From Roseovarius sp. THAF27 (GTDB taxonomy: Bacteria; Pseudomonadota; Alphaproteobacteria; Rhodobacterales; Rhodobacteraceae): 64,000 nucleotides of DNA. The notes below the pieces were generated by a model. That model had not been told where the DNA came from. It ran no database searches and saw only the letters and a program-made list of their open reading frames with translations. How positions within the stretch are numbered: the stretch's first letter is position 1; every line of letters begins with the position of its first letter. Positions 2,949-7,349 of this stretch are shown here, in pieces. The translations under genes and the position numbers were made by a program. The stretch covers positions 1,612,001 to 1,676,000 of the forward strand of contig NZ_CP045393.1 in assembly GCF_009363655.1 (NCBI RefSeq), read 5' to 3'.

Positions 2949-3885
2949 CAGCGCCCACACCCCCCGCGCCATCGGCCTTTTGCTCTATACCGGGGCGCTG
3001 CTGGGCGCCGGCCTGCCGCTGGGCAAGCTGGCGTCCGGTGCAGGGGTGCCGCCGCTGGTCTGGGCCATGGTGATTTCCGCCGGGGCCGCCGGCGTTCTGG
3101 TGCCGGTGCTGGTGGTCCAGCGGCGCTTCGCGCTGCCCCGGGGGCGGATGCTGCGCTATGCAGCCATATCCGGCACGCTCAGCTTTGCCGCGGTCAACGC
3201 GCTTCTGTTTTGGGTGATCCCGCATGTCGGCGCGGGCTATGCCGGGCTGATGTTCGCCCTCTCGCCGGTGGCGACGCTGGCGGTGACGGCGCTGGCAGGC
3301 CTTGCCACGCCGCCCCGGCTGGGGATCATCGGCATCGGTCTGGGCCTTGCCGGAGCGGCGCTGGTGGCGCTGACGCGGGGCGGGGCGATTGGGACGGACG
3401 GGGCAGGGGGCCTGGGCTGGGCGGTCCTGGGCTTCGCGCTTCCGGCGATCCTGGCCATCGGCAATGTCTATCGCACGCTCGACTGGCCCGAGGGCGCACA
3501 CCCCGCCGCCCTCGCGGCGTGGAGCCATATCTTCGCGCTCCTGGCGCTGGGCCTGCTGCAACTCGCCCTGACCGGCGACGTGCCGCTCGAGCGTCTGCAT
3601 GCCGTGCCGCATCTCGTCCTGCCCCAGATGCTGGTCGCGGGCCTGACCTTCCCGGCCTATTTCGCCCTGCAACGCGCGGGCGGCCCGGTGCTGCTCAGCC
3701 AGATCGGCTATGTCGCCGCCGCCGTGGGGCTGGCCGCCGGCACGGTGCTGCTGGGCGAGGTCTATGCCCCGCTCACCTGGGCCGGGGCGGCGGTGGTCGC
3801 CATCGGCATTGCCCTGACCATCCGCGCGCAGCTCTCCCCGGCGCCGGAGGTCCCCCGGCGGGCGCCCTCCGCGGGATGCGCTTGA
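2941..3885 (+). CDS. EamA/DMT-superfamily transporter
   Basis: A 314-aa membrane protein with about ten hydrophobic helices in two repeated halves, as in EamA (RhaT/YdcZ-type) drug/metabolite exporters. It starts inside the 3' end of the VOC gene (8-bp overlap), so the two are translationally coupled. Being second in a SoxR-controlled operon suggests export of a redox-active or toxic small molecule. The substrate is not deducible. The C-terminal 20 residues are Pro/Arg/Ala-rich and probably cytoplasmic. Confidence 0.85.
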   Translation: MTDSAHTPRAIGLLLYTGALLGAGLPLGKLASGAGVPPLVWAMVISAGAAGVLVPVLVVQRRFALPRGRMLRYAAISGTLSFAAVNALLFWVIPHVGAGYAGLMFALSPVATLAVTALAGLATPPRLGIIGIGLGLAGAALVALTRGGAIGTDGAGGLGWAVLGFALPAILAIGNVYRTLDWPEGAHPAALAAWSHIFALLALGLLQLALTGDVPLERLHAVPHLVLPQMLVAGLTFPAYFALQRAGGPVLLSQIGYVAAAVGLAAGTVLLGEVYAPLTWAGAAVVAIGIALTIRAQLSPAPEVPRRAPSAGCA

Positions 3886-3917
3886 CCGGGCGGGGGCGGC
3901 CTTCTATGGTCGCCCCC

Positions 3918-3959
3918 ATGACCGTTGCACCCATCACCATTTGCTGCATTACCCGCTGA
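3918..3959 (+). CDS. Cysteine-codon leader peptide upstream of cysS (MTVAPITICCITR)
   Basis: A 13-codon ORF, ATG to TGA, with two consecutive TGC cysteine codons (3942-3947) ending 83 bp before the start of cysteinyl-tRNA synthetase. An in-frame upstream ATG at 3906 would add MVAP. Tandem codons for the amino acid that the downstream gene charges are the signature of ribosome-mediated attenuation. The stop region lies within a hairpin whose downstream arm can pair alternatively (see 3952-4017). No strong Shine-Dalgarno precedes it. I infer a regulatory rather than functional peptide; it is too short for homology support. Confidence 0.5.
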   Translation: MTVAPITICCITR

Positions 3960-4017
3960 CATCGTCAGGCGGGCCGGTCTTCTATTCCATCCTTGAATGT
4001 TAGTTGCTAAGCCCGCC
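3952..4017 (+). promoter_or_regulatory. Mutually exclusive hairpins, candidate cysS attenuator
   Basis: CCCGCTGAC (3952-3960) pairs with GTCAGGCGGG (3964-3973), giving nine pairs, one bulged G and an ATC loop. The GGCGGGC of its 3' arm (3968-3974) can instead pair with GCCCGCC (4011-4017), giving seven perfect pairs around a 36-nt loop. The two structures cannot coexist. A ribosome stalled on the two Cys codons would cover the 5' arm and favour the second. No U-run follows, so control at cysS translation or Rho-dependent termination is more likely than intrinsic termination. Confidence 0.42.
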
Positions 4018-4042
4018 GCGGGACCACGCGCGCGAGGACGCC

Positions 4043-5515
4043 ATGACAACACTAAAACTCCACAACACCCGCACCCGGAAGAAAGAGGTGTTCGAGCCTC
4101 TGAACAAGGACGATGTGCGCATGTATGTCTGCGGCCCCACCGTCTATGACCGCGCCCACCTGGGCAACGCGCGGCCCGTGGTGGTGTTCGACGTGCTCTA
4201 CCGGCTGTTGCGGCACGTGTATGGCGAGGATCACGTCACCTACGTCCGCAACTTCACCGACGTCGATGACAAGATCAACACCCGCGCCGCCGAGACCGGG
4301 CGCGATATCTCGGACATCACCGCCGAAACCACCCAGTGGTTCCTGGACGACATGGGCAGCCTCGGCGCGCTTGAACCCAACGAGATGCCGCGCGCCACGC
4401 AATACATACCGCAGATGGTGGCGATGATCGAGAAACTGATCGCGGATGAGTATGCCTACGAGAGGGAAGGCCATGTCCTCTTTCGCGTCCGCAAATACGC
4501 CGACTACGGCAGACTCTCCGGCCGCTCGGTCGACGACATGATCGCCGGCGCCCGGGTCGAGGTCGCCCCTTTCAAGGAAGACCCGATGGATTTCGTCCTC
4601 TGGAAACCTTCCGATGAGACGCAACCGGGCTGGGACAGCCCTTGGGGCAGGGGCCGCCCCGGCTGGCACATCGAATGCTCTGCCATGGCCTTCGAGTTGC
4701 TCGGCAACAGCTTCGACATCCACGGCGGCGGCAACGACCTGATGTTCCCCCACCACGAGAACGAGATCGCCCAAAGCTGCTGCGCCCACCCCGAGGGGCA
4801 ATTCGCGCAGGTCTGGATGCACAACGAGATGCTTCAGGTCGAGGGCAAGAAGATGTCCAAGAGCCTGGGTAATTTCTTCACGGTGAAGGATCTGTTGGAT
4901 CAGGGCATTCCCGGCGAGGTGATCCGCTTCGTGTTCCTCAGCACGCATTACCGCAAGCCGATGGACTGGACGGCAGAAAAGGCGCGGGAGGCGGAAATTA
5001 CATTGAGAGAATGGATTGAAACTGCTGACCTCGATTGTTCGGGGGAAGTCGACGAGATAGTGCTTGAGGCGCTGTCCGATGATCTGAACACCGCAATGGC
5101 AATTCAAAGAATGCATGAGTTGTACGCAACGGGTGATGCTCGCTCGCTTACAGCGTCAGCTGCTCTGCTTGGTTGGGACCTTGCGGCACTTCAACAAGCT
5201 AACTGGGCAAAACCATTCAAGGTCGAGATGGAGGCGGGGGTCGAACTAGAGGAAGGTGTGGACTTTCAGCCGACCATAGGCGTCATGGGGTGGGGAAGCT
5301 TTCAAAAAGAAGTAATTGATGAATGCATGAATATTGCGCGTTTTTGGTTGACCCTTCGTAGGGAAAAGTCATGGGACGACGCAGATAGCCTACGCAGTAA
5401 GGCAGCCTCGATCGGTATCGAACTGCGCGCTCACAAATCAGAAAATGGTGTAAACGGCGCGACAGCAGAACTTAGGTACAACTTCGACCCCGCCAAATTG
5501 GAGGCCCTCAAATGA
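4043..5515 (+). CDS. cysS: Cysteinyl-tRNA synthetase
   Basis: Charges tRNA-Cys with cysteine in the cytoplasm. The 490-aa product shows class I signatures: [18 protein letters not shown] (Zn Cys and HIGH-like HLGN), [27 protein letters not shown] and [11 protein letters not shown]. The start is the ATG at 4043 with GAGGA upstream; an upstream in-frame ATG lacks this. The last ~175 residues (from about base 4990) are AT-richer and unlike the usual anticodon-binding domain: by direct count GC is 65% at 4321-4380 but 43% at 5281-5340. The extreme C-terminus [10 protein letters not shown] again looks familiar. The reading frame is intact, so this is probably a functional hybrid. Confidence 0.93.
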
Positions 5516-5541
5516 TCCTCCAACAGACACATCAGAGCGAA

Positions 5542-5729: not shown

Positions 5730-7349
5730 ATGACCAAAACCCGCCTCAGCCTCTACGACACCACCCTGCGCGACGGCCAGCAAACCCAGGGCGTGCAATT
5801 CTCCACCGCCGAGAAGCAGGCCATCGCCACCACGCTCGACCAACTCGGCGTCGACTATATCGAAGGCGGCTGGCCCGGGGCAAACCCCACCGACAGCGCC
5901 TTCTTCGACGCCGCCCCCGAGACCCGCGCGCGCCTCACCGCCTTCGGCATGACCAAGCGGGCCGGACGAAGCGCTGAAAATGACGACGTTCTGGCGGCGG
6001 TCATGAATGCCGGCACCGCCTCGATCTGCCTCGTCGGCAAGACCGATATCTTCCACGTCGAAACCGCCCTCGGCATCGCCCCCGACGAAAACCTCGAAAA
6101 CATCTCCGCCTCCATCGCCCATATCGTGAAACAGGGCCGCGAGGCGCTGTTCGATGCCGAGCATTTCTTCGACGGCTACGCCCGCGATCCCGCCTATACG
6201 CTCGACTGCCTGAAGGCCGCGCATCAGGCCGGCGCCCGCTGGATCGTGCTGTGCGACACAAATGGCGGCACGCTCCCGCACCGCATCGCCGACGTGGTAT
6301 CGGACGTCATCGCCGCCGGCATCCCCGGCGAACGCCTGGGCATCCACACCCATAACGACACCGAGAACGCCGTCGCAGGCAGCCTCGCCGCCGTGGATGC
6401 AGGCGCGCGCCAGATACAAGGCACGCTCAATGGCCTGGGCGAGCGCTGCGGCAACGCCAACCTCACCGCGCTCATCCCCACGCTTTTGTTGAAAGAACCC
6501 TACGCCAGCCACTACCAGACGGGTGTCACCCTCGAAGCGCTCGAAGGCATCACCATGGCCTCGCGCCAACTGGACGAGATCCTCAACCGCGTCCCGATGA
6601 AGCAATCCGCCTACGTGGGCGCCTCCGCCTTCGCCCACAAGGCGGGCCTGCACGCCAGCGCCATCGTCAAGGATCCGACCACCTACGAACATATCGACCC
6701 CGCCACCGTCGGCAACGCCCGCATCATCCCCATGTCCAACCAGGCGGGCCAGTCCAACCTGCGCAACCGCCTCTCCGAGGCCGGGCTGGAGATCGAAAAG
6801 GACAACCCCGCGCTCCCGCGCATCCTCGAAGAGGTCAAGACCCGCGAAAACCGCGGCTACACCTACGACATGGCGCAGGCCAGCTTCGAGCTGGTCGCCC
6901 GCCGCGAACTGGGCCTTCTGCCGGAATTCTTCGAAGTCAAGCGCTACAAGGTCACGGTCGAGCGCCGCAAGAACAAGTACAACAAGATGGTGTCCCTGTC
7001 CGAGGCCGTCGTGGTCGTCAAAGTCGACGGCGAGAAGAAACTGTCGGTCAGCGAGTCCATGGACGAAACCGGCACCGATCGTGGCCCGGTGAACGCCCTG
7101 GCCCAGGCGCTGGCCAAGGACCTCGGCCGCTACCAGGACGCCATCGCCGACATGCGGCTGGTGGACTTCAAGGTGCGCATCACCCAAGGCGGGACCGAGG
7201 CCGTCACCCGCGTCATCATCGACAGCGAGGACGGGCAGGGGCGGCGCTGGTCGACCGTGGGCGTGTCGCCCAACATAATCGACGCCTCCTTCGAGGCGCT
7301 GCTCGAAGCAATAAACTGGAAACTTTTGCGCGACGGCGGCGAGGCCTGA
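5730..7349 (+). CDS. cimA: (R)-citramalate synthase
   Basis: Condenses pyruvate and acetyl-CoA to citramalate, the first step of the threonine-independent route to isoleucine. The 539-aa protein has the DRE-TIM metallolyase signature LYDTTLRDGQQTQG, the metal-binding GIHTHND and HKAGLHASAI, and a C-terminal allosteric (LeuA-dimer) domain after about residue 400 (VERRKNKYNKMVSLSEAVVVVKVDGEK). The extended length and EGGWPGANP motif fit CimA rather than LeuA or homocitrate synthase. It starts just after the 130-bp repeat, so it may be read through from cysS. The methyltransferase follows 3 bp downstream. Confidence 0.92.
   Translation: MTKTRLSLYDTTLRDGQQTQGVQFSTAEKQAIATTLDQLGVDYIEGGWPGANPTDSAFFDAAPETRARLTAFGMTKRAGRSAENDDVLAAVMNAGTASICLVGKTDIFHVETALGIAPDENLENISASIAHIVKQGREALFDAEHFFDGYARDPAYTLDCLKAAHQAGARWIVLCDTNGGTLPHRIADVVSDVIAAGIPGERLGIHTHNDTENAVAGSLAAVDAGARQIQGTLNGLGERCGNANLTALIPTLLLKEPYASHYQTGVTLEALEGITMASRQLDEILNRVPMKQSAYVGASAFAHKAGLHASAIVKDPTTYEHIDPATVGNARIIPMSNQAGQSNLRNRLSEAGLEIEKDNPALPRILEEVKTRENRGYTYDMAQASFELVARRELGLLPEFFEVKRYKVTVERRKNKYNKMVSLSEAVVVVKVDGEKKLSVSESMDETGTDRGPVNALAQALAKDLGRYQDAIADMRLVDFKVRITQGGTEAVTRVIIDSEDGQGRRWSTVGVSPNIIDASFEALLEAINWKLLRDGGEA

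Follow-up and report, generated by a model that had tools for sequence, protein, structure and literature searches.

Attenuation of an aminoacyl-tRNA synthetase operon by a leader peptide is known from pheST of Escherichia coli, and the same principle is proposed here for the cysteinyl-tRNA synthetase gene cysS within a 64,000-nucleotide stretch of the Roseovarius sp. THAF27 genome (hereafter, the window), although the pheST attenuator works with Phe codons and an intrinsic terminator, unlike the element analyzed here. The closest described system is uORFC-8-2, a computer-predicted attenuator located before cysS in Rhodobacterales (RNA Biol 2021, PMC8632094); the part of that paper dealing with it (section 24) is computational and reports no experiment on the motif. 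The element of the window fits the written description given there: both are situated before cysS in Rhodobacterales, have an AUG uORF in which two adjacent Cys codons, mostly UGC, are conserved, and both have been proposed to act by ribosome-mediated attenuation. The preliminary description of the locus, according to which no case was described for cysS in this group, has to be corrected in this respect. Several details differ, however. The Cys codons of uORFC-8-2 usually occupy positions 14 and 15 in contrast to 9 and 10 here, the first of its two stems holds these codons while the hairpin found here (P1) spans the stop codon, and its last stem is followed by the U run of an intrinsic terminator, while a pyrimidine-rich tract lies 5–15 nt past the stem in the present case. 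A leaderless start, the two further pairings described below (P2 and P3), a second promoter, cimA and the Ile codons are all absent from the section on uORFC-8-2. PMC8632094 was the sole paper found in the open-licence literature on uORFC-8-2 or on cysS attenuation in Rhodobacterales, and a search of this literature by title and abstract (cysS leaders; cysS with cimA) found no experimental study of the element.

Among the more distant systems, the mycobacterial polycysteine short ORFs are described as leaderless, with contiguous Cys codons and a downstream cysteine response (PMC9094748, PMC9031893); the element here likewise combines a probably leaderless ORF with a Cys pair but belongs to a different phylum. 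The actinobacterial Cys leaders precede cys operons and cbs and are described as having no conserved hairpins (PMC1262725), in contrast to the cysS element with its conserved rival hairpins. Transcripts of the trpL attenuator of the alphaproteobacterium Sinorhizobium meliloti start directly with the ATG of a leader peptide of 14 aa (PMC7298713), as proposed here; unlike here, this attenuator contains Trp codons and acts by transcription attenuation of trpE(G) (PMC7298713). The element of the window is real, conserved and already described in outline, and the mechanism put forward below is a revision of the published reading. What is added is a probably leaderless start, rival arms identified by position and backed by compensatory changes, a switch point that folding models resolve to the codon, and a probable promoter bypassing the switch.

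The leader ORF, its putative promoter and its distribution

The leader ORF MTVAPITICCITR occupies positions 3918–3959 of the forward strand (ATG 3918–3920, TGA 3957–3959), comprises 13 codons and precedes cysS (4043–5515, forward strand; TIGR00435 above cut-off, PF01406). Its tandem Cys codons TGC TGC (3942–3947, forward strand) are the presumed stall site, as judged from the leader comparison and folding models; the 13-codon Cys-Cys ORF had been read correctly in the preliminary description. A promoter scan found one promoter-like site at the leader against 0.1 expected, TTGACC-17-TATGGT at 3882–3910 of the forward strand. Its spacing is kept in the relatives: the –35 box was located 35–37 nt ahead of the leader ATG in 71 and the –10 box 12–13 nt ahead in 70 of 76 rows, among which the window appears twice (L001 and WIN) together with the near-identical L002. 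An SD-like string preceded the leader in six of the 76 rows, five of these inside the –10 box. Because the promoter boxes are spaced such that +1 coincides with the first base of the ATG, the transcript appears to start at or beside this base and the leader looks leaderless. A further in-frame ATG at 3906 falls within the –10 box, and therefore 3918 is the likely start.

The ORF was found ahead of cysS in 71 of the 80 named loci (70 by pattern and the variant leader of L087 by inspection) and was absent in nine (L015, L030, L036, L048, L054, L058, L073, L082 and L088); the named loci most similar to the cysS of the window belonged to Rhodobacteraceae, many of them to Roseovarius. The leader was also present in all eight loci kept from the genus, one belonging to the genome of the window and the rest to 7 of its 23 further genomes. 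Trained on 69 sequences of the element, a covariance model matched 231 of the 295 family genomes (E up to 0.01) and missed 64, with one match per genome among the matches listed; in the genome of the window the model gave a single match, at cysS, and no further leader copies. In each of the 84 matches sampled, tblastn (E up to 1) placed CysS downstream. The leader pattern was satisfied in 81 of them, where the leader ATG lies 118–180 nt ahead of cysS, the remaining three loci (L098, L116, L152) having degenerate leaders. Among 240 genomes drawn from the class, three gave clear element matches, all within the family, and four further matches were weak (E 0.019–0.034) and at chance level. The covariance models of Rfam 15 families, including the T-box, produced no match up to E = 1 within 3500–4300. 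A chance ORF was ruled out by the family-wide conservation, since the leader precedes cysS in relatives throughout the family and both pairings described below covary.

The peptides were compared in 149 distinct leaders out of 159 rows collected with a pattern requiring Cys (L087 stands outside this set): on this basis tandem Cys codons were present in 113 and at least two Cys in 146. The peptide usually ends with I-I-C-C-I-(I/T/P)-x after a variable N-terminal half, and the last internal Cys was separated from the stop by three codons in 109 leaders, four in 36 and five in 4. Retention of the ORF, the Cys codons and covarying pairings among the relatives, on which the preliminary description had staked its case, was observed in this comparison. 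In the first 75 leaders, 221 of 225 Cys codons were TGC and 166 of 301 Ile codons were ATT. The corresponding figures for the first 300 codons of cysS in 87 loci, or 26100 codons, were 274 of 350 and 167 of 1163 (Fisher tests, kinship ignored). As a side observation, the Ile codon behind the conserved Cys (3948–3950 in the window) was ATT in 136 of the 149 leaders, while ATC prevails in cysS.

Rival pairings and a probable second promoter

Hairpin P1 (3952–3973, forward strand; folding and covariation) lies over the stop codon and consists of arm 1, CCCGCTGAC at 3952–3960, a loop at 3961–3963, and arm 2, GTCA-(G)-GCGGG at 3964–3973, with nine base pairs and one bulged G. It is present in the lowest-energy fold of 3918–4060, in agreement with the 9-bp hairpin reported before, although that fold as a whole had no exceptional stability (z –0.94; matched by 34 of 200 shuffles). 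In the alignment used for P1 covariation (A2), which had been fitted to the P1 structure, 82.9% of the cells were paired, five of eight pairs had changed on both sides, and 19 cells carried a double change; shuffles gave 6.4, and not one of the 500 reached 19 (kinship ignored). Alignment A1 was made without L044 and near-duplicates. The P1 region is rewired in seven sampled loci (L101, L102, L104, L107, L112, L127 and L132), where a longer GC-rich inner hairpin replaces the usual short loop.

The terminator scan of 3800–4100 found no canonical intrinsic terminator, in line with the earlier remark on a missing U-run, but in the relatives the hairpin is followed by a tract rich in pyrimidines and poor in G. 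T reached 57–81% at several positions 5–15 nt past the stem and G was 0–4% at positions 6–9, a GC-rich spacer of the CCGG type separating stem and T-rich tract. At least five T within 8 nt, starting 3–7 nt past the stem, were present in 89 of 115 loci, but only in 33 of 115 when starting 0–2 nt past it. One trait of a classical attenuator is present, the leader codons being those of the amino acid handled by the regulated gene; the exchange between an intrinsic terminator and an antiterminator was not found, as far as the scan of 3800–4100 reaches.

The rival pairing P2 (3968–4017, forward strand; covariation) joins GGCGGGC of arm 2 (3968–3974) with GCCCGCC of arm 3 (4011–4017). The two arms are fully complementary, as the preliminary description had indicated, and the pairing covaries. 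On 69 sequences the signal was slight, with four double changes where shuffles gave 1.9; 46 of the 500 shuffles reached four. In 135 of the 149 loci, the arms being unlocated in the other 14, the mean duplex energy was –15.00 against –13.92 (sd 0.13) after exchange of partners, and none of 300 exchanges was as low (kinship ignored). A compensatory change to GCGGAC:GTCCGC was found in both L068 and L157, whose nearest CysS relatives differ and retain GCGGGC:GCCCGC, and L148 has GCAGGC:GCCTGC; judged from these sequences, the three changes are independent. The outermost pair of P2, readable in 112 loci, was G-C in 50, C-G in 30, A-G in 19, C-C in 6 and T-G in 3, with four further combinations occurring once each. 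The comparison supports P1 and P2 as mutually exclusive pairings, both covarying, so that the attenuation logic proposed at the outset stands for its Cys-codon leader and its exclusive pairings.

Arm 3 can also pair with arm 4 in hairpin P3 (4012–4037, forward strand; folding and partner exchange), which takes up two G of the Shine-Dalgarno sequence GAGGA of cysS (4034–4038, forward strand). Among 128 loci its mean energy was –9.42 against –8.81 (sd 0.14) with partners exchanged, none of 300 exchanges being as low (kinship ignored), and in 100 of the 128 the mean probability that bases of the SD region pair with arm 3 exceeded 0.3. From arm 3 up to the ATG, the sequence was little more stable than its shuffles (mean z –0.52), and the support for P3 appears weaker than that for the leader, its promoter spacing, P1 and P2.

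Arm 3 is overlapped by a probable second promoter, TTCCAT-17-TAAGCC with a TG extension at 4005–4006 (3985–4013, forward strand), which, judging from its spacing in the relatives, probably drives cysS. The –10 pattern was found in 112 of 149 loci searched, and in 109 of these a TT-initial hexamer stood 17 bases ahead of the extended –10; the latter was TGCTAAGCC in 60 of the 112, and five of the 112 matches (TGACAAGTT) were displaced a few bases upstream, onto a site overlapping the one sought. Inspected by eye, the second promoter was kept with equal spacing in seven of the nine loci without leader ORF. These seven (L030, L036, L048, L058, L073, L082 and L088) offer natural controls for the contribution of the leader. 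The string TTGCTAAGCCCG does not look like a general box, because the genome holds a single exact copy of it, and matches with one mismatch do not outnumber those obtained with the pattern reversed. Part of the conservation of arm 3 may be due to the promoter; as the whole reason for keeping arm 3, the promoter was ruled out by the compensatory changes.

Proposed switch and alternative readings

The reading adopted here, held with slightly better than even confidence, is ribosome-mediated attenuation in which the supply of charged tRNA-Cys is sensed and the translation of cysS is controlled. Transcription would start on the leader ATG, and a ribosome loading at the 5′ end would read the 13 codons. 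With ample Cys-tRNA it would reach the stop codon and leave, arms 1 and 2 would form P1, and arm 3 would be free to pair with the ribosome-binding region of cysS (P3), resulting in poor translation of the synthetase. With scarce Cys-tRNA the ribosome would wait on the Cys pair and cover arm 1, arm 2 would pair with arm 3 (P2), and the freed ribosome-binding site (RBS) would allow more synthetase to be made. The second promoter just ahead of cysS would supply a basal level escaping the switch. The leader, its promoter spacing, P1 and P2 are supported by the comparison of relatives; we infer the stalling, the direction of control, the translational output and the activity of either promoter.

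The switch point was modelled in 121 loci by placing the ribosome at each codon, with the A-site codon plus 9 nt covered; the models are equilibrium folds of the RNA alone. The mean P1 probability was 0.49–0.54 with the ribosome on codons seven to two before the conserved Cys and fell from 0.54 through 0.26 to 0.04 as the A site moved from two codons before to one before and onto this Cys, while mean P2 rose from 0.30 through 0.42 to 0.58 and mean openness of the RBS region from 0.37 through 0.39 to 0.43. The codon one before the conserved Cys is itself Cys in 111 of 149 leaders, and the hairpins are thus predicted to swap at the two Cys codons. For the window, the last three steps gave 0.68, 0.01 and 0.00 for P1, 0.24, 0.33 and 0.88 for P2, and 0.31, 0.30 and 0.49 for RBS openness; P2 also reached 0.83–0.95 with the ribosome on codons 3–5, yet RBS openness there was 0.20–0.27. 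Comparing a stall at the second Cys with P1 formed, the RBS region opened in 64 loci, closed in 10 and was unchanged in 47 of the 121 (changes above 0.05 counted as opening); an earlier run with a stall at the first Cys gave 34, 5 and 31 of 70 loci, respectively. The predicted effect on RBS opening is therefore modest, and some loci, e.g., L067, had no switch in the folding models.

The published alternative shares the stall logic and places the output in transcription: P1 with its U-rich tract would be an intrinsic terminator, and a ribosome stalled on Cys would block P1 and let the polymerase enter cysS. According to PMC8632094 the motif always ends in a run of U, and the T-rich tract 5–15 nt past the stem in most relatives agrees with this, so the tract may leave room for termination. 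However, the GC-rich spacer keeps T directly behind the stem in a minority of loci only, the terminator scan of 3800–4100 found none, and the covarying P2 and the P3 pairing are left unexplained, although P2 could serve as an antiterminator. This makes transcription attenuation rather unlikely. Because arm 3 can also hide the RBS of cysS, translation is the likelier output as judged from the comparison and the folding models, in line with the preference for translational control voiced in the preliminary description; should this be true, the published terminator model needs revision. It is improbable that Rho acts on the pyrimidine-rich stretch behind P1 once the leader has been read, and is prevented from doing so by a stalled ribosome or by P2: the near absence of G shortly past the stem would suit such a site, and Rho sites have been weakly proposed for actinobacterial Cys-codon leaders (PMC1262725), but the stretch is short, and P3 and the fixed geometry of P2 would have no explanation.

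The peptide itself might also act, as an arrest peptide or in trans, with its Cys and Ile residues kept for that purpose. Ile is indeed enriched around the Cys pair, being present three codons ahead of the conserved Cys in 118 and directly behind it in 145 of the 149 leaders, and the peTrpL leader peptide of another alphaproteobacterium is reported to act in trans (PMC7298713). Nevertheless, the N-terminal half is variable, the Ile positions also take Thr, Cys, Leu and Pro, and the Cys pair is located just where the hairpins switch in the folding models, all of which renders an acting peptide very unlikely in comparison with stalling for charged tRNA-Cys.

The cysS-cimA gene pair and isoleucine

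The next gene downstream of cysS is cimA, encoding citramalate synthase (5730–7349, forward strand; TIGR00977 above cut-off, domains). Of 89 loci, 85 had cimA behind cysS; among the exceptions, L042, L066 and L084 were cut short by contig ends, and L030 had neither a leader ORF nor cimA within the flank. In 40 of 40 further genomes, chosen among those with a leader position in the matches listed, cimA shared contig and strand with the leader and lay 1.4–2.1 kb further downstream, as judged by coordinate comparison. Of 16 genomes from other families searched, nine had a cimA-like match and in five of them cysS adjoined it by coordinate comparison; none of the 16 gave a match to the leader. The pairing as a hallmark of the leader was consequently ruled out, the two genes also being neighbours in other families without leader, as in the alphaproteobacterial genomes G024, G027, G033, G038 and G039, and for the same reason the gene pair seems to predate the leader.

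In Roseobacter denitrificans, 80% of isoleucine is made via citramalate on pyruvate (PMC2749216). The leader peptide mostly has 2–4 Cys and 3–5 Ile codons (3–5 Ile in 132 of the 149 leaders) ahead of cysS-cimA, and an Ile-rich leader in this position suggests a second input. In such a case the leaderless Cys and Ile leader would weigh both supplies for the gene pair, with translation as the output and the promoter overlapping arm 3 providing a basal level: shortage of Cys would stall the ribosome where the switch opens, and shortage of Ile either before the switch zone (shut) or just past it (open). This extension is regarded as speculative and on balance unlikely. The simpler version, in which Ile shortage just opens the switch, was not upheld, since stalls before the Cys pair leave P1 in place on average in the folding models. 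If the Ile codons do matter, the leader would be unusual in responding to two unrelated amino acids on behalf of paired genes that serve both.

The cysS gene itself has an uneven composition. Its last third (4900–5524 of the window) contains 50–54% GC with a changed GC skew, in comparison with about 60–66% upstream, and many relatives align well with CysS only to about residue 380 of 490, which points to a mosaic or fast-evolving C-terminus.
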